36,689 bases of DNA from a bacterium (GTDB taxonomy: Bacteria > Oederibacteriota > JAAXVQ01 > JAUVAV01). Of the stretch, positions 8,504 to 31,877 are shown in pieces. Location: the NCBI GenBank assembly GCA_021108215.1, contig JAIORK010000005.1:1-36689 (forward strand), read 5' to 3'. Position numbers and translations under genes: made by a program. The notes under the pieces are model-generated. The model made no database searches. It was not told the DNA's origin and worked only from the letters and a program-made list of their open reading frames with translations. Numbering within the stretch: the stretch's first letter is position 1; each line of letters starts with the position of its first letter.

Positions 8504-10267
8504 TTGAAACTTTCAAGAGTTGTTTCTGTTTTTTTTCTGAGTATCTTCCTCTTTAGCAGTGCTGCCGAAGCGGTATGGCAGACCGTGACCATTGGCAGCG
8601 GTTTCAGTGATTATAATGATGTGACCGTAACCGCCGGTAGGAACGGTTCGTCAACCATGTATCTCTATGGAGCAAGTGATGATAATGAAATTCACGAGTT
8701 TTATTGGAACGGAATCGGGTGGGAAGATAATACCATTGCGGATACATCAGTGAGTAATTATATGGGAGTGGCGGTCGGTTCCGGCCGGAATAATGGTATG
8801 GTATATATCTATGGCAGCAATGAGGATGACCGTATTCATGAGTTTTATTATAACGGCACCGGTTGGGGCCGGACATCCACCACGGATGACGCCAGTAATT
8901 ACAACCGGATGGTGGTTGGACCGGGACGCGATACTGCAACCCATTACCTTTATGGCGGCAATGATGATAATTTAATTGTTGAGTATTACTGGAACGGTTT
9001 GTTCTATAATGCTGAGTTTACAGCTGCAGAATCCGGGGATATGTGGGAACCTGTGATCGGCAATGGCCGCAATGACGGGACCAACCGCCTTTATTGCGCC
9101 TGTAGAGATACTCACGTCTATGAGTATACCCATAATGGTGCGGACTGGGACCAGGTGGATATGGGCACACTCATTGATGACGGTTATGCCATGGCGCTCG
9201 GTGCAGGTCGCAATGGTAATACGCTCAATTCGATTTATGCCGGCGACCGGGACGGTGTGATACAGGAATTCCGCCGGAACGGGAGCGACTGGGACCAAAT
9301 TAATATGGGCGGTCCGGGTATCAATGATATCGCTTGTTATGGTGTTGCCATCGGGGATGGCCGCAATGACGGCGTGATCCGGGTTTATGGAGGTTTCGGT
9401 AACGGCACAACGTACGAGTATTTGTGGAATGGGACCAGTTGGAGCGCGGCCTCGCTGGGTGATACCGGTGGTGTATTAAACGGCATGGCATTGGGTATGG
9501 GGCGGCAGAGTGACGGCATCAATTCTGTTTTTGTCAGTTCTGATGATAATGTAATTTATGAGTATGTTTGGTTTACCGAGACACCCACCCCGAGTCCTTC
9601 ACCAACCGATACGCCGGTCAATTCGCCTACCATAACCCCAACTCCCAGTATAACCCCAACGGTGACGATCAGTCCGACATCAACCATCACATCGACATTT
9701 ACCCCCTCAGCCACAATTACATCTACATTCACTCAGACCGTAACCTTTACCCAGACCTTGACAGCGACCATTTCGCCGACGTCCACGATTTCACCGACCA
9801 ATACCTATTCTCCCACGATCACGGTAACCCCAACGCGAACGGTGACCTATACAGCAACCCCTTCGCCGACGATTACCCTGACAATGACCGCTTCGCCGAC
9901 AATGACGGTTACCCAGACCAGCACAGCCTCGCCAACCTATACAGTGTCACCGACCATTACGCAGACTTCAACCCCGAATTTGGCAGCCGAGGACTTATCC
10001 AATGTCATTGTGTATCCCAACCCCTACCGGGGAGATGTTAATTTGCGCGGGGAAATTATCCTTTTTAATCTGCCTGACCGGGCTATGATCCGGTTCTACA
10101 CGGTTGACGGCAGGAAGGTAAAAGAAATAGTCAAGGATGACCCGGGAAACCGGGTGGTTTGGAATATGACCAATGAGAATGGCGCGGATGTCGCTTCCGG
10201 TGTTTATATTTATATTATCAAGACCATTCGTGAAGAACGCAAGGGCAAGGTGGTTATATTGAAGTAG
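8504..10267 (+). CDS. Secreted seven-repeat beta-propeller protein with Thr/Pro linker and FlgD-like C-terminal domain
   Basis: The 587-residue protein starts with a TTG codon and a signal peptide (about residues 1-23). Residues about 33-350 are seven repeats of some 47 residues. Each has a glycine-rich GxGRNDG turn, a short strand ending in YG, an acidic turn, and EYYWNGxxW, which suggests a seven-bladed propeller resembling lectin or FG-GAP-like folds. Residues about 357-490 are a Thr/Pro/Ser linker. Residues about 491-587 form a FlgD-Ig-like domain with VYPNPYRG, FYTVDGRKVKE, GVYIYIIK and a basic end (KGKVVILK). Such domains often sit at the ends of exported or surface proteins. Ligand and export route are unknown. 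Confidence 0.8.
   Translation: MKLSRVVSVFFLSIFLFSSAAEAVWQTVTIGSGFSDYNDVTVTAGRNGSSTMYLYGASDDNEIHEFYWNGIGWEDNTIADTSVSNYMGVAVGSGRNNGMVYIYGSNEDDRIHEFYYNGTGWGRTSTTDDASNYNRMVVGPGRDTATHYLYGGNDDNLIVEYYWNGLFYNAEFTAAESGDMWEPVIGNGRNDGTNRLYCACRDTHVYEYTHNGADWDQVDMGTLIDDGYAMALGAGRNGNTLNSIYAGDRDGVIQEFRRNGSDWDQINMGGPGINDIACYGVAIGDGRNDGVIRVYGGFGNGTTYEYLWNGTSWSAASLGDTGGVLNGMALGMGRQSDGINSVFVSSDDNVIYEYVWFTETPTPSPSPTDTPVNSPTITPTPSITPTVTISPTSTITSTFTPSATITSTFTQTVTFTQTLTATISPTSTISPTNTYSPTITVTPTRTVTYTATPSPTITLTMTASPTMTVTQTSTASPTYTVSPTITQTSTPNLAAEDLSNVIVYPNPYRGDVNLRGEIILFNLPDRAMIRFYTVDGRKVKEIVKDDPGNRVVWNMTNENGADVASGVYIYIIKTIREERKGKVVILK
9583..9975 (+). repeat. Low-complexity Thr/Pro coding tract
   Basis: About 390 bp encode a run dominated by Thr, Pro, Ser and Ile in short PT/ST units (for example TPTPSITPTVTIS). 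At DNA level it is rich in ACC, ACG, CCG and CCC codons in short irregular repeats, a likely site of length variation. An open frame at 9568-10041 is only a shadow of this tract. Confidence 0.85.
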
Positions 10268-10413: not shown

Positions 10414-11493
10414 ATGAATTTAAAAATATTTATTCGTTCATTTTTAATCTTTTTCCGGCCTATGCGCTGGATGCTTTTTTTTGGTATTGCCGGCGCAGCC
10501 TTTGTTTTTACGATTGCAACCGCAATGGTGCAACCGGCCGGAATTGTAACCGCCCCATCACTTTCCCAAGTGGAATCAGCTCGACATTATTTTGCACCTG
10601 AGCGTCTTCAGGCTTTTTCCGGAAATGATTTTAATCTGATACCTGATCTGGTTGATTTTCTTGATCAACTGGAAAATAGCCTGCGCATGGCTGCGCCGGA
10701 AGCATCAGAGCTTGAAGACCTCTATGCAGAGTATACCCGGTTTACTAATCCTAACTTTGTAACCTTTGATATTTATACGATTCAGCGGGGGGATAATTAC
10801 TGGAAAATCGCCAAACAACATGGGTATACCATTGATTCCATTGTGGGATGCAATCCTCATTTGGGTAAGGTAGTCTGCTATGTCCGCCAGCGGGTGTTGC
10901 TGCCTTCCCGCGGCGGGTCATTACACCTCGTGCGTGCGGAGGAAACATTGACATCAATTGCACTGGACTATGCGGTGACCAAAGAGATCATTTTGGAGGC
11001 CAATCTGATTGATCCGCAATGGGGTGTTATCCCCGGCATGTGGTTGTTTATCTCCGGTGCCAAACCGAGATATTTGTCTGAGGACATGCAAAAGCAGTAC
11101 AATCAACGCGCCTTGTTTCGCTCGCCCCTGGCCGGACGGTATTCTTCCTTTTTTGGAAACCGGATTCACCCGGTGTTGGGTTTTTCGAAATTTCATAATG
11201 GCGTGGACATTGCCTGCCCCATGAATACCTGGGTGGGCGCGGCAGCCGCAGGAAAAGTCATTGCCGCAGGTAAAGGCGGTGCGATCGGAACGTATATTAA
11301 GATTGATCACGGTAATGGCTACAAAACTCTGTATGGTCATCTGAACAAAATTCATGTAAGCCGAGGCCGGCAGGTCAGCCGGGGACAGTTGATCGGCCGG
11401 GCCGGGGCCACAGGCAGGGTCACCGGACCGCATCTGCATTTTACAATTTATAAAAACGGCCGCGTAGTTAACCCGATGGATTATTTGTGGTAA
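10414..11493 (+). CDS. LysM-domain M23 family metallopeptidase
   Basis: The 359-residue protein should act on peptidoglycan in the periplasm or regulate it (EnvC/NlpD-like). Residues about 18-38 are a membrane anchor or uncleaved signal. Two LysM-like units follow: YTIQRGDNYWKIAKQHGYTI (121-140) and HLVRAEETLTSIALDYAVTK (171-190). The M23 domain (about 236-357) retains the zinc ligands His261 and Asp265 (HNGVD) and His342 (GPHLHF), with His309 in YGHL, so it is probably catalytic. I chose the ATG at 10414, giving a basic-hydrophobic N-terminus; the frame is open to 10345. No ribosome site precedes it. aroQ begins 19 bp downstream. Confidence 0.88.
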   Translation: MNLKIFIRSFLIFFRPMRWMLFFGIAGAAFVFTIATAMVQPAGIVTAPSLSQVESARHYFAPERLQAFSGNDFNLIPDLVDFLDQLENSLRMAAPEASELEDLYAEYTRFTNPNFVTFDIYTIQRGDNYWKIAKQHGYTIDSIVGCNPHLGKVVCYVRQRVLLPSRGGSLHLVRAEETLTSIALDYAVTKEIILEANLIDPQWGVIPGMWLFISGAKPRYLSEDMQKQYNQRALFRSPLAGRYSSFFGNRIHPVLGFSKFHNGVDIACPMNTWVGAAAAGKVIAAGKGGAIGTYIKIDHGNGYKTLYGHLNKIHVSRGRQVSRGQLIGRAGATGRVTGPHLHFTIYKNGRVVNPMDYLW

Positions 11494-26979: not shown

Positions 26980-29250
26980 ATGACAATCGGAGTATTTATT
27001 CTACAGTTTACAGTCGCGATAATAATCCTGGCAATGGCCGTTTATGTGCCGGGCCGGTTTTTGGTTCGTTGGCTCAGATTGGATTTGGATGTTTTGGAAC
27101 ATCTGGCAGCCAGTCTGGTGGGTGGGGCCGGTTTGTTGACATTGATTTACTGGAGCCTTTCCATGCTCAAGGTTGGTTTTTTACTCTGGGTGTATGTTTT
27201 GGTCGTTCTTGGGTTTGAAAGTTTTTATGCTTACCGGGATTACCAAAAACAAAAAAGTTTTATCCCCGACCCGGGGGTGCCCCGTCCCGAAGTTTTTAAA
27301 GACCACTGGCTGCTCGGCGTGTTGATGCTGGGCGGCATGCTGGCACAGTCCCGCTTTGCTGCATTGACCGGCTGGCAGGGAGCGGAAGGGATTCGGCTGT
27401 TGGCCTGGCATGCCCATGATGCACCTTGGCATATTTTTAATCTTTACCAATTAAGTCACGCGTTTCCGCCGGAAATGCCCGGATTTAGCGGTCATTTGCT
27501 GAAAAATTATCATATGTTTTCGGATCTTCTTTGGGGTGCGGTTTTACGGCTGGCCCCCCTTGATCCATGGCATTGCTATTTCCGGGTGGCACCGCTTTTT
27601 TATTCCGCACTTTTGACCCTGACCACGTTTGTGGCGGCACGGCGCTGGTCCGGAAAAAAACCTGTGGGATATTTGGCAGCCGCCATGACGGTTTTTTGTT
27701 CCAATTTTGGTTATGTCATGCCGTTGTTATTTGGGGCAGACAAATATTTTTTATGGGAATCGGTTTTTTGGGTGCAGCCGCCGTTGACCAACATTTTTAA
27801 TCCGGGGGTTTCATCTGCGTTTGCTTTTTTGATGCTGGGAGTATGGGCGTTGACAGGATGGATGCAGGAGAAAAAGCAGTGGGGTTATCTGGTGCTGCTG
27901 GCATTATTTTGGGGTGTTTTGCCGGGATTTAAAGTTTATCCCGGGGTCTTGGTGGTTGCCGGTCTTTTTGTTTCAGGTGCTGTATTACTCGTTTTTCAAC
28001 GTAATTGGAAACAGTGGATTGCATTGGCGGCGCTTTTACCTTTATTCCTGTTTGTTTTTTTGCCGCCCAATTTGCATGCGCCTTCTTTAATCCGCTTTTT
28101 ACCGGGATTCAATCTGGCAGCCATGCTGGTTGCACCTGACCGGATGATGCTTATGAGTTCGACCCAATTGAAGCTCCTCTTTGCACAAAGACCGGGACTG
28201 GTGGCGCTCATCATGGCGGGACTGGCACTGGTGTTTCTTATCGGGAACCTTGGCGTCCGTGCCGTCGGGATGGTTCCCATGCTGCGGACGGTTTTTTCTC
28301 CCCGGCGTGCGGATCCTATTCTGGTTTTTATCACGGTGGTGATAGGCGGGGCATTGGCGGCACCGATACTGTTTGTTCAAAAAGGTGTTCAATGGAATAC
28401 GATACAGTTTTTCTATTTTGCCGTGCTGCTGTCGGCATTGCCGGCAGCCAGTCAGTTTTGGAAGTGGATTGCAGCGTTGAAACGGGACTGGCAACTTTTT
28501 TGGGTCTGTATTTTTTTTGGTTTGGGAATTCCGGGAAGCATCCAGGCCTGGTGGGTGATTGATTTTCATTATCAAAGCAGTGCCGCCGTTTGTGAAGGTG
28601 CAGCCTGGCTGCGTACCAACACCGATCCGGCTGAAACAATTTTACGTCCCTTGCCGGATGCATTGATGACCGAGGAAGGGTATGCCTACTGGCTTCGCTC
28701 GCAGGAGCGGGGCAAGATGACATCACTCGGGCAATGGCAAACCGAGGCAGCGTCCCTGGCGGCCGAGGATCCCGAACCGGACAAATCACCGGCGATTGTC
28801 AACGTGCCTGAAACTGTGATGTCCCATACTACCGGGAATTCGATGGTTGCGGCATCCTTGCCGGCTGCCCGGGGCACTACCCTGGTGGGGAAAGAGAACA
28901 GTGCTCATAGGATGGAAAACGAGGGACCCCGGGATGGGATGGAGGCATGGGAGCGGACCGATGTGGCGGCGATAGCCGGTTTGGCATTGCGAAATACCTA
29001 TTTGGAAGATACGGTTTCCTCACAAATTATGGGGTTCCCGGTTGCCAAACGGGTCGCGGCGGTCCGGGATTTTTATGCAGTTAAAGACGTGGTGGAAGCA
29101 CGTGAATTTCTTGAGAAAGAAAACATTACTTATGTTATTCTGTATAGCGATAGGGTACTGCCGTTTAAACCGGAGGGTGTGCCGTTGAAAAAAGTTTTTG
29201 AAAACAGTGCGATGGTGATCTATAAACACGTCTATCAGGAGGGATGGTGA
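26980..29250 (+). CDS. Large GT-C-like membrane glycosyltransferase candidate
   Basis: The 756-residue protein has a dozen or more hydrophobic helices. After the first helices comes a loop with HAHDAPWHIFNLYQLSHAFPPEMPGFSG and NYHMFSDLLWGAVLR, the acidic-histidine pattern seen in uncharacterised GT-C families that use polyprenol-phosphate sugars. The last quarter is soluble and contains an unusually polar insert of about 65 residues (near 600-665) rich in Glu, Pro, Ser and Gly. A short alpha/beta segment (EFLEKENITYVILYSDRVLPF) follows. GAGGAG lies before the ATG. The end overlaps the next gene. The acceptor and sugar are unknown; the GT2 upstream could make the donor. Confidence 0.72.
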   Translation: MTIGVFILQFTVAIIILAMAVYVPGRFLVRWLRLDLDVLEHLAASLVGGAGLLTLIYWSLSMLKVGFLLWVYVLVVLGFESFYAYRDYQKQKSFIPDPGVPRPEVFKDHWLLGVLMLGGMLAQSRFAALTGWQGAEGIRLLAWHAHDAPWHIFNLYQLSHAFPPEMPGFSGHLLKNYHMFSDLLWGAVLRLAPLDPWHCYFRVAPLFYSALLTLTTFVAARRWSGKKPVGYLAAAMTVFCSNFGYVMPLLFGADKYFLWESVFWVQPPLTNIFNPGVSSAFAFLMLGVWALTGWMQEKKQWGYLVLLALFWGVLPGFKVYPGVLVVAGLFVSGAVLLVFQRNWKQWIALAALLPLFLFVFLPPNLHAPSLIRFLPGFNLAAMLVAPDRMMLMSSTQLKLLFAQRPGLVALIMAGLALVFLIGNLGVRAVGMVPMLRTVFSPRRADPILVFITVVIGGALAAPILFVQKGVQWNTIQFFYFAVLLSALPAASQFWKWIAALKRDWQLFWVCIFFGLGIPGSIQAWWVIDFHYQSSAAVCEGAAWLRTNTDPAETILRPLPDALMTEEGYAYWLRSQERGKMTSLGQWQTEAASLAAEDPEPDKSPAIVNVPETVMSHTTGNSMVAASLPAARGTTLVGKENSAHRMENEGPRDGMEAWERTDVAAIAGLALRNTYLEDTVSSQIMGFPVAKRVAAVRDFYAVKDVVEAREFLEKENITYVILYSDRVLPFKPEGVPLKKVFENSAMVIYKHVYQEGW

Positions 29251-31130
29251 CGGTAATGACGCAACGCCTCCGGCAATGGCTGGTACCGGTGTGCATTGGC
29301 CTCCAAATTATAAGTCTCGCAGTATGGTGGGAATGGTTCAATACCTTTGCTTTCGGGACAGGAACGCTCGGCGGCGGCATTGTTAAATTTTTTCTGCTTA
29401 GCGGTTTTTTTGCATTTTGGGCATTTAAATTACCGGGCATCATGGAAAGAAAATTTGGATGTGACCGGGAGACCTATCTGGAGAAAGATGCACTGGCCGG
29501 GTTACCGTTGGCGGGTCTTTTGCTTATCATTCCGTTTGCCAAATCGCTGGGGCCGGCAGCCAAAATTTTCACTTTTCAATTGTTCGGATATGTCTGGATG
29601 CCTTGGTGGATGAAAAGCTATGTTATTTCATCAGAGGCGAAGCTGGTCTTGGTGGTTGCCGGGATTTTTATTTTAGGGGCCATGGTTTTAAAAATTCGGG
29701 TTTTGCTCCAAACGCTGTATCAATCCGCTTTTGAAAAAATCAGTGTAAAGCGGTTGTTTTGGTTCGGATTTTTAATTTATATTATGCTTTTAAGCTGGCC
29801 CGCCTGTACGCAAGCGCCGCAAGCGGGGGAGATTTCCCACTGGTTGGTGACCCAATCGCTGGCATTGGATGGTGCATTTCATGTGGACGGCGTTTTGGGC
29901 CGGGCGGATTACTACCAGTTTTATCCCCTGCAAAAAATAATTTATAGAGGTTATACCGATAGTCTTGGCCGGCTGTTTTTACCCGTGGCACCGGGCATGC
30001 CGCTTTTGTATATCACCTTTTTTTTAATGCAGGGCCGTTGGCTGTTGGCGGTTCTGGCCATGCTCTTTGCAGCCGGTGCGGCGTCACAATTATTCGGGTT
30101 TTGTCGTGAACAGGATTTTTCACATAAAACCAGCTTTTGGGTATGGCTGGTCACGCTTTTCAGCGCACCGTTGATGCTATACGGTTATCAGCAAACCGAG
30201 GTGACGGCAGGTGCTTTTTTTCTGATTTTTGCGTTACGGAATATTTTTAGGATTCGTAAACAAAGTCCCTCCGAGAGTATGACGTCTGCCTCAATCGCGG
30301 CACTGGCGGCCGGTTTAATGCTTTTAGGAGGTATTCGTTTTTTAATTCCGGCATTGTTTCTCATCCTGTTTTTAGCCTGTCAGCTGTTTGTAAAAAAACG
30401 CATGGTCCAGTTGCTTATCGCCGGTCTGGTGCTGCTGGTACCGTTGGCGTTCACCGGCTGGTACTACGCGGTTATTTATAAATTTTTCCTTACGCATATG
30501 CCATACAAGTTTTATTGGCCCTGGGAATTGAGCGGCTGGCTCAATCTTATGGCGGTTTTCTTTGACCGCTATGCCGGTATGGTATGGCACGCACCTATCT
30601 GGATTGTCGGATTGGCCGGGACGTTTTGGATGGCTAAAACCCGCGGAATATTTTTGTCAGCCATTGTGTTTTTTTCTTTTATAACCGGATTGATTACAGC
30701 TATGATTTTTCCGGATGCCTGGGGAGAAGGATCGAGTTTTCACCGGTTTGTAGCCCCCATGACCCCGCTGTTGGGCCTCGGATTGGCGGCTTTTCTGGAA
30801 GCCATCGGATCAAGCGCAATCTGGCGCAAACGGCTGTACTGGATCAGTATGTGGGGTGTAGGCATTGTTTTACTGCAAACCGTCTTTCCTTTTTTTGCCA
30901 CCGAGGCCGTGCGGCTGCGGCTGGGCCTTCATTTTCAACCTTTGGGATGGATTTATGGCGTGCTGCCATCCTTCAAAGGCCGGGTGATTATGCTTGAAAT
31001 GCTAGTGGGCGCGATACTGATGATTGCCCTGGGATATGCTGTTTTCCGATTAGTCGGCTGCTTAAAAAAACTCCGGCAAGATACATTCATACCGCAACCA
31101 GATGAAAAACCCAAACCCCGTATTGTCTAG
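29247..31130 (+). CDS. Polytopic GT-C-like membrane protein
   Basis: The 627-residue protein has about a dozen helices. A loop after the fifth or sixth helix reads EISHWLVTQSLALDGAFHVDG and later LGRLFLPVAPGMPLLYITFF. This matches the position of the GDEPHYLLIAESL and KHFPALPLLLAPLY motifs of the 31845 protein, so the two look like distant relatives. I chose the GTG at 29247, which overlaps the previous stop (GTGA) and lies four bases after AGGAGG; ATG at 29244 and 29256 are alternatives. The last nine residues (DEKPKPRIV plus the stop region) lie in a sequence duplicated 743 bp downstream. Confidence 0.68.
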   Translation: MTVMTQRLRQWLVPVCIGLQIISLAVWWEWFNTFAFGTGTLGGGIVKFFLLSGFFAFWAFKLPGIMERKFGCDRETYLEKDALAGLPLAGLLLIIPFAKSLGPAAKIFTFQLFGYVWMPWWMKSYVISSEAKLVLVVAGIFILGAMVLKIRVLLQTLYQSAFEKISVKRLFWFGFLIYIMLLSWPACTQAPQAGEISHWLVTQSLALDGAFHVDGVLGRADYYQFYPLQKIIYRGYTDSLGRLFLPVAPGMPLLYITFFLMQGRWLLAVLAMLFAAGAASQLFGFCREQDFSHKTSFWVWLVTLFSAPLMLYGYQQTEVTAGAFFLIFALRNIFRIRKQSPSESMTSASIAALAAGLMLLGGIRFLIPALFLILFLACQLFVKKRMVQLLIAGLVLLVPLAFTGWYYAVIYKFFLTHMPYKFYWPWELSGWLNLMAVFFDRYAGMVWHAPIWIVGLAGTFWMAKTRGIFLSAIVFFSFITGLITAMIFPDAWGEGSSFHRFVAPMTPLLGLGLAAFLEAIGSSAIWRKRLYWISMWGVGIVLLQTVFPFFATEAVRLRLGLHFQPLGWIYGVLPSFKGRVIMLEMLVGAILMIALGYAVFRLVGCLKKLRQDTFIPQPDEKPKPRIV

Positions 31131-31134
31131 TCGC
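31102..31134 (+). repeat. Left copy of a 33-bp direct repeat
   Basis: It matches 31845-31877 at 31 of 33 positions. This copy is the 3' end of the 29247 gene, including its TAG stop. The right copy is the 5' end of the 31845 gene. The nucleotidyltransferase/HEPN pair lies between. Confidence 0.9.
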
Positions 31135-31275
31135 GGAAGAAATTGGATCGGATAAATTTCAAAATCGGCATGGGATATCTCGTGCTCAGGTATTCTTTTA
31201 TTATTGACGTGAATATTTTATTTGATTATCATTAATTTATTGTTGATGTATTGATTTTTAAAAGTTTTACGGGTG

Positions 31276-31596
31276 ATGGAAATGGGATACAGGAATAAAA
31301 TCGATTTAATAAAAAAGCGATTAATTAAGGAAATTTCTCCGGAAAGTATTTATATCTTTGGCTCCTATGCCCACGGTACTGAGAATCCGGACAGTGATCT
31401 TGATTTTTTAGTTATATGGGATACACCCTTGCCGGCACATAAGCGCAATGTACTATTGAGCGGTTTTTTTTCTGATAGAAATTTCCCGCTGGATATTTTT
31501 GCTTTTACCCGGAAGGAAGCGGAAGCATTTCGGGACATTCCCGGCAGTATGGTCTACGAAGCTGTTCAGAATGGCAAAATGATCTATGGACAATAA
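31276..31596 (+). CDS. Minimal nucleotidyltransferase (MNT, MntA-like)
   Basis: The 106-residue protein has the minimal NTase signature GSYAHGTENPDSDLDFLV (Gly29-Ser30, Asp41, Asp43), the GSx10DxD pattern of the MNT/DNA polymerase beta fold. A third acidic residue is likely Asp in FPLDIFAF. MNT proteins pair with HEPN partners as toxin-antitoxin systems, with the MNT able to AMPylate and silence the HEPN toxin. Here the HEPN-type gene follows with an 11-base overlap. I chose the ATG at 31276; GTG at 31273 and ATG at 31282 are also in frame. The ribosome site is weak. The gene interrupts a run of GT-C-like genes. Confidence 0.88.
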   Translation: MEMGYRNKIDLIKKRLIKEISPESIYIFGSYAHGTENPDSDLDFLVIWDTPLPAHKRNVLLSGFFSDRNFPLDIFAFTRKEAEAFRDIPGSMVYEAVQNGKMIYGQ

Positions 31597-31873
31597 AAAT
31601 CAGCTGGTTAAATTATGGTTTACTAAAGCTGAGCACGATTTGATGACGATTACTAATAACCTGGTTAACAAATCGGAGCCTTTAACCGATATTTGTTGTT
31701 TTCATGCACAACAAGCGATTGAAAAAATGCTGAAGGGTGCATTGGTTTTTTTTGGTAAGCATGTTACCAAAACCCATGATTTGATATATTTGGTTAATCA
31801 ACTTCACGAATACATTCCGGAATTACAGCAATATAATAATCAATATGAAAAACTCAGACCCCGTATTGTCTAG
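31586..31873 (+). CDS. HEPN-domain protein, C-terminally truncated
   Basis: The 95-residue protein matches the HEPN family N-terminal part: LWFTKAEHDLMTITNNLV, then CCFHAQQAIEKMLKGALVFFGKHVTKTHDLIYLVNQL. Members are usually about 120-135 residues and continue with a helix around an Arg-Tyr-Pro segment; here the chain ends soon after YIPELQQYNN. The last residues (YEKLRPRIV) and the stop codon are read from the right copy of the 33-bp repeat, and nearly match the tail of the 29247 protein (DEKPKPRIV). I see no RX4-6H ribonuclease motif, so nuclease activity is doubtful. Its end overlaps the next gene by 29 bases. Confidence 0.82.
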   Translation: MDNKNQLVKLWFTKAEHDLMTITNNLVNKSEPLTDICCFHAQQAIEKMLKGALVFFGKHVTKTHDLIYLVNQLHEYIPELQQYNNQYEKLRPRIV

Positions 31874-31877
31874 TCGC
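31845..31877 (+). repeat. Right copy of the 33-bp direct repeat
   Basis: It matches 31102-31134 with two differences (positions 10 and 13). It encodes both the last residues and stop of the HEPN frame and, in another frame, the first eleven residues of the 31845 protein. Confidence 0.9.

Follow-up and report, generated by a model that had tools for sequence, protein, structure and literature searches.

The window (the whole stretch of DNA that was analysed, 36,689 nucleotides) holds an MNT-HEPN toxin-antitoxin (TA) module that sits between two copies of the same 33 bp, at the junction of two putative glycosyltransferase genes, gt1 and gt2. We think it probable that a foreign piece of DNA carrying this module was added at the gt1/gt2 overlap, and that the event is one case of a recurrent mode of insertion based on recombination. 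The features concerned are the following.

26980-29250, + strand: gt0, upstream membrane gene (tblastn 41-63% identity, at all six relatives' loci)
29244-31130, + strand: gt1, putative glycosyltransferase of 628 aa (46% to the orthologue in the relative G002; weak NCBIfam match)
31102-31134, + strand: repeat copy 1, 33 bp, end of gt1 including its stop and ancestral start of gt2
31135-31844, + strand: insert, 710 bp, 35% GC, terminal inverted repeats absent
31135-31272, + strand: AT-rich leader, 28% GC, presumed promoter region of the module
31273-31596, + strand: MNT antitoxin gene, intact, with a GSx10DxD motif (GSYAHGTENPDSDLD) read from the sequence
31586-31873, + strand: HEPN toxin gene, truncated at about profile position 81 of 117, stop from repeat copy 2
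31845-31877, + strand: repeat copy 2, 33 bp, 31/33 identical, source of the HEPN stop and of the gt2 start codon
31845-33674, + strand: gt2, putative glycosyltransferase of 609 aa, start codon aligned with that of G002

The insert and the empty junction

The two repeat copies match at 31 of 33 positions at a spacing of 743, just as the earlier note had described them with two differences, and a search of the whole 3.56-Mb genome with up to 3 mismatches returns these two occurrences only (control 0). Within the 2-kb region there is no second direct repeat of comparable quality, and the target sequence flanking the insert is unique in the genome on both sides. The C-terminus of gt1 and its TAG stop fall within copy 1, and gt2 starts with the ATG of copy 2. 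Between the copies, GC content is 35%, as against 47-48% in gt1 and gt2. The gene content of the insert is MNT and HEPN only, with no transposase, and its ends score 4.5 end to end as inverted repeats, against a shuffled mean of 5.3; the insert thus has neither of the two hallmarks of an insertion sequence or transposon.

The context of this junction is conserved across the family, in that gt0 homologues adjoin gt1/gt2 homologues at the loci of all six nearest relatives. Only one of these, G002, has the order gt0-gt1-gt2. There, the gt1 stop TGA overlaps the gt2 ATG, the module is absent, and the gt2 start codon aligns with that of the window. A relative with an uninterrupted junction, which the earlier note had advised looking for, is thus present, and its picture of two overlapping genes holds at G002; its assignment of both to the GT-C class, on the other hand, is plausible only, since gt1 and gt2 have no Pfam match and, in NCBIfam, sub-cut-off matches to a putative glycosyltransferase family alone. 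A gt2 query against the genome-contig collection gave no related loci. Because the end of gt1 and the start of gt2 both remain in each repeat copy, the ancestral overlap in the window must have been longer than in G002, at about 29 bp. The simplest history is one in which the module was gained and the overlap duplicated in the process. Loss of the module in G002 stands beside it as a formal alternative, since the sole relative with an empty junction is kin at the family level only.

A separate observation concerns the other end of gt2. On a contig of another genome (L067, G006:C31), the closest relative of the window MNT lies directly downstream of a gt2 homologue and is paired with a full-length HEPN. 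We considered whether this reflects an ancestral linkage with gt2 and rejected it: the module occupies the opposite end of the gene, its identity is 37-38% and flanking repeats are absent, so that an independent insertion is more likely. Its place beside a gt2 homologue may be chance or a favoured neighbourhood.

The module and its shortened HEPN

The module has the layout of known MNT-HEPN systems (also HEPN/MNT, HepT/MntA or type VII), namely a two-gene operon with MNT first and a PF05168 HEPN-T toxin (PMC2701414, PMC3710099, PMC7641770); the MNT and HEPN frames overlap at 31586-31596. The first gene is a nucleotidyltransferase with matches to PF18765 (E 1.2e-10) and PF01909 (E 9.4e-10), and a sub-cut-off match to the NCBIfam MntA model (37 of 60 bits). 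The second departs from the known systems. Its ORF covers positions 1-81 of the 117 of PF05168, short of a complete HEPN-T domain, and comes to 95 aa, compared with 126-149 aa in most relatives, whose HEPN proteins go on with LTxYAVExRYP and a last helix. The window HEPN ends before this point, without the YAVExRYP segment and the last helices; the C-terminal helix is thus missing, as the earlier note had supposed. The catalytic Rx4-6H region (often with D for H) and the tyrosine proposed as the target of MNT lie in the C-terminal part (PMC3710099). Since this part is missing, the window HEPN is very probably non-toxic, to judge from its sequence. The truncation is a local accident, separate from the mode of insertion, since in other modules inserted alike HEPN is mostly full length. 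A HEPN query against viral contigs gave no match, and no link to phage was seen.

The right-hand end of the module deserves closer attention. The HEPN ORF ends in copy 2, in agreement with the proposal that its last residues and stop were taken from the duplicated copy. However, the HEPN profile alignment extends into the repeat-encoded residues, and the fit ends only after the Leu of YEKL. HEPN residue 90 is Leu in 38/42 relatives and corresponds in the window to this same Leu, which is encoded by CTC in copy 2 vs CCC in copy 1. The YEKL part of the proposal is thus to be qualified, in that 12-13 bp are perhaps HEPN's own. This is suggestive only, but it would make the right-hand join one at microhomology, with the first 12-13 bp of copy 2 contributed by HEPN and a real target duplication of 20-33 bp.

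In the operon, gt1 is complete, the gt2 start is kept, and the stop of HEPN overlaps the start of gt2 as the gt1 stop had done. The duplicated stretch excludes the sequence upstream of the gt2 ATG, and for this reason gt2 may depend on ribosomes coming from the HEPN remnant. The truncated HEPN frame would then carry ribosomes across the gt2 start, a role formerly that of gt1, and such reliance would be a reason for the frame to persist. The module may be in decay, or it may be retained as an antitoxin or a translational coupler.

Modules between target copies across the phylum

The earlier note had raised the prospect that a duplication this long betrays a different mode of insertion, and had proposed looking for further modules with copies of the target on both sides. 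Such a search is strongly positive. In the phylum, 9/27 MNT loci have flanking direct repeats (score 22-137), against a control in which left and right flanks from different loci were paired and the score never exceeded 13. For HEPN, surveyed in a tight range of about 900 bp upstream and 600 bp downstream with a threshold score of at least 20, the count is 16/53 loci vs 6/500 random positions (Fisher p 2.5e-13). Target copies thus flank about 30% of the MNT-HEPN modules of the phylum (a quarter to a third), and the spacings between the copies cluster around the module size. Other families show the same arrangement: repeats of 72-286 bp (84-96%) flank 6/45 VapC loci, four of them within about 1.1 kb, and among ParE loci a score of 20 or more is reached by 4/25, including a REP-like one. 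Repeat length varies accordingly, from the 33 bp of the window to 22-286 bp at other TA loci. HEPN modules have as targets either gene ends (mutS, nrdJ, carA, gene/gene junctions) or a terminator, and VapC modules have gene 5' ends, 3' ends and one likely gene junction. The gene names used here and below (nifJ, mutS, nrdJ, carA, nuoN) are our own reading of the protein sequences.

One explanation that would empty these counts of meaning is that dispersed intergenic repeats, tandem gene duplications or assembly errors mimic target duplications. Single candidates did turn out this way. L175 and L092 are dispersed REP-like elements, and the 144-bp, 99% repeat of L085 is the C-terminal half of the MNT gene itself, pointing to duplication of the module; L085 was rejected for this reason, and the two REP-like loci were discounted together with L135 and L097, which have partial matches elsewhere. 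As an account of the set, however, we hold the explanation to be highly improbable. At least 12-13 of the 16 flanked HEPN loci have repeats that are not dispersed elements, most HEPN repeats match their own locus alone among the loci compared, and that of the window is confined to its locus. Furthermore, the copies carry substitutions, unlike the exact k-mer joins of an assembler, and relatives have empty sites.

Individual loci illustrate the pattern. First of all, G006:C84 repeats the architecture of the window: a 100-bp repeat (95%), consisting of a glycosyltransferase gene end with its stop and of the beginning of the following gene, has a full-length HEPN between its copies, and the same gene pair is adjacent and module-free in G003. 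Second, in a single genome, G027, the repeats are the last 120 bp of mutS through TAA (C106), the last 83 bp of nrdJ through TGA (C69) and the 3' end of carA, present three times (C59; L177, L309), with a DUF2283 gene in the first gap and MNT-HEPN in the second. In relatives, the mutS, nrdJ and carA sites are empty or differently occupied, the genes being without the G027 insert. Third, at G009:C18 the repeat of 161 bp (99%) takes in a tRNA's 5' part together with upstream sequence. Finally, the window's own genome has a terminator that was used by two different TA-like modules, as its three copies around them indicate.

8645-8693, 9761-9809 and 10781-10818, reverse complement of locus L308 (G000:C22): copies of the nifJ terminator

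The order at this locus is a nifJ-like gene, an intrinsic terminator, a full-length MNT-HEPN module, the terminator again (49 bp at 98%), a second pair and a third copy of the terminator (38 bp at 100%). The second pair consists of a small protein and an HTH_3 protein and is RelE/HigB-HigA-like, although RelE-type models match its toxin only below their cut-offs.

Serial modules at one site, as at the nifJ terminator and the carA 3' end, are array-like, and gene 3' ends and tRNA genes are classic integration sites. Both would fit a site-specific cassette system, whether integron attC, XerC/D dif module or tyrosine-recombinase island in a gene 3' end, with the repeats as its sites. On the other hand, the repeats of different loci have no common sequence or core, each being a copy of the local target; they occur at gene 5' ends and junctions too, and no integrase or recombinase gene was found in the inserts. 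The cassette-system explanation is mostly refuted by the absence of a shared site, and we regard it as very unlikely.

Two of these sites call for additional remarks. An extra REP-like piece of about 60 bp at G027:C59 is common to the two dead carA copies and absent from the true carA end, so that the fragment copied in the second duplication was dead by then. The mutS site was used a second time in a different genus, at G033:C39 (L230), where an AbiEii/DUF6036 nucleotidyltransferase gene separates mutS from a second, diverged mutS 3' end.

Copy divergence, the route of insertion and known systems

How the two copies of a target differ bears on how the second one arose. After duplication of a target and death of one copy, most changes should be nonsynonymous. 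The nrdJ copies, on the contrary, have 8 synonymous and 0 nonsynonymous differences, the mutS copies 15 and 6 (21 in total), and the copies of a helicase 5' end 12 and 7. The mutS copies, at 82.5% identity, have diverged to about the degree that separates G027 from its congener G030 (80%). For nrdJ and mutS, each copy would thus appear to have spent time in a working gene, which would mean that the module arrived together with a homologous gene end from another lineage. The synonymous-biased cases, read from the sequences, speak for recombination with donor DNA rather than for a plain duplication that then decayed. Elsewhere the signal is weak or absent (nuoN 8 synonymous and 8 nonsynonymous, L304 15 and 13, the glycosyltransferase end of L290 10 and 20), so that part of the set may have arisen by simple duplication and later drift. 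The two differences in the window are nonsynonymous in either frame and are uninformative on donor origin; neither this pair nor the near-identical pairs discriminate between the models.

The main competitor of recombination is transposition, with an unknown recombinase acting in trans, a long and variable staggered cut, and fill-in that duplicates 20-160 bp of target. At many loci the repeats closely bracket the module alone, and near-identical pairs (161 bp at 99%, 90 bp at 99%, 49 bp at 98%) resemble fresh duplications. Some insertion sequence families, such as IS1634 and IS1549, likewise make long target duplications of variable length, but they do so with a transposase and terminal inverted repeats, and the inserts here have neither. 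Across 20 inserts there were no terminal inverted repeats above the shuffled expectation and no shared ends, the inserts are without a recombinase, and the nrdJ and mutS copies diverged like functional genes rather than a live and a dead one. We thus consider transposition unlikely.

Under the recombination-based mode that we prefer, bare TA modules would be added at gene ends and terminators and become flanked by long direct copies of the target. The donor would be a gene end plus module, either as a linear fragment or as a circle excised between repeats, and the donor gene end would pair with that of the recipient, leading to one homologous and one illegitimate join or to a single crossover, for which no transposase would be needed. 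Homology-facilitated illegitimate recombination and excised-circle single crossover are the candidate routes. For RecA-type recombination, 33 bp of homology is close to the minimum. Neither a donor with gene end plus module nor an excised circle was found. In the window, foreign DNA with MNT-HEPN would have been added at the 29-bp overlap of the two co-directional genes with nothing removed, leaving the overlap (20-33 bp) on either side and retaining the gt1 end and gt2 start. The right join would interrupt the HEPN gene, probably where HEPN and target have a short run of bases in common (ATGAAAAAC), severing the conserved C-terminal part of the toxin.

This kind of mode is already described, so that the supposition of a different insertion mode is supported by its recurrence in TA modules while the mode as such is not new. 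For restriction-modification systems, 'insertion with long target duplication' was reported by Nobusato et al. (2000) and Furuta et al. (2010), both cited by PMC3031569 and PMC3874152. In the account of these later papers, the shared features are a selfish two-gene defence or addiction unit, transposon-free, with long variable direct target repeats of about 100 bp. The signs are present here too, with a unique target on two sides, an empty site at family level, and variable length with no transposase or inverted repeats. By the same account, the present cases differ in that the unit is a TA module (MNT-HEPN, also VapBC), that the repeats copy conserved gene ends or terminators with serial insertions at one site, and that some copy pairs show synonymous divergence like that of donor and recipient. 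For TA modules themselves, the nearest precedent is in Microcystis aeruginosa, where a ParDE-like module behind the caspase homologue MaOC1 sits between two identical direct repeats of 152 bp, of which the first lies 14 bp past the gene's stop (PMC7935541). In the part of that paper available, this is a single case of another TA family, with an internal inverted repeat in the repeat, and is not generalised. MNT-HEPN modules are known to be mobile, with a recent insertion in the lysine operon of Thermus thermophilus HB8, and the survey of Makarova et al. 2009 describes this mobility; the term 'direct repeat' is absent from its searched text (PMC2701414). No systematic account of long target duplication for TA modules was found in the open literature, subscription papers being outside the search.

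Solitary chromosomal TA modules have a patchy distribution although they are usually recombinase-free. A direct copy of a conserved gene end is a datable scar that gives access to insertion sites, donors and ages, and synonymous divergence between copies makes transposition and recombination testable against each other from sequence. If general, the mode would provide a single mechanism for the mobility of TA and restriction-modification systems and explain their harmless siting at gene ends. A wider reading, possible if somewhat doubtful to us, is that chromosomal TA modules from several families travel as bare cassettes without an integrase, via recombination at conserved gene ends and terminators. 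Each cassette would then bring the end of the gene in which it lands, the target gene would still work, and further modules could stack there, which would account for the movement of modules outside classical mobile elements.

VapC genes offer some further detail. Those at L304 (G009:C22), L293 (G027:C91) and L279 (G001:C57) have flanking direct repeats of 154-286 bp; their sources are a helicase-like gene (5' end), a nuoN-like gene (3' end) and the start of a further gene. PIN-domain (VapC-type) matches number 34 in G027 vs none in its congener G030 at the same threshold.
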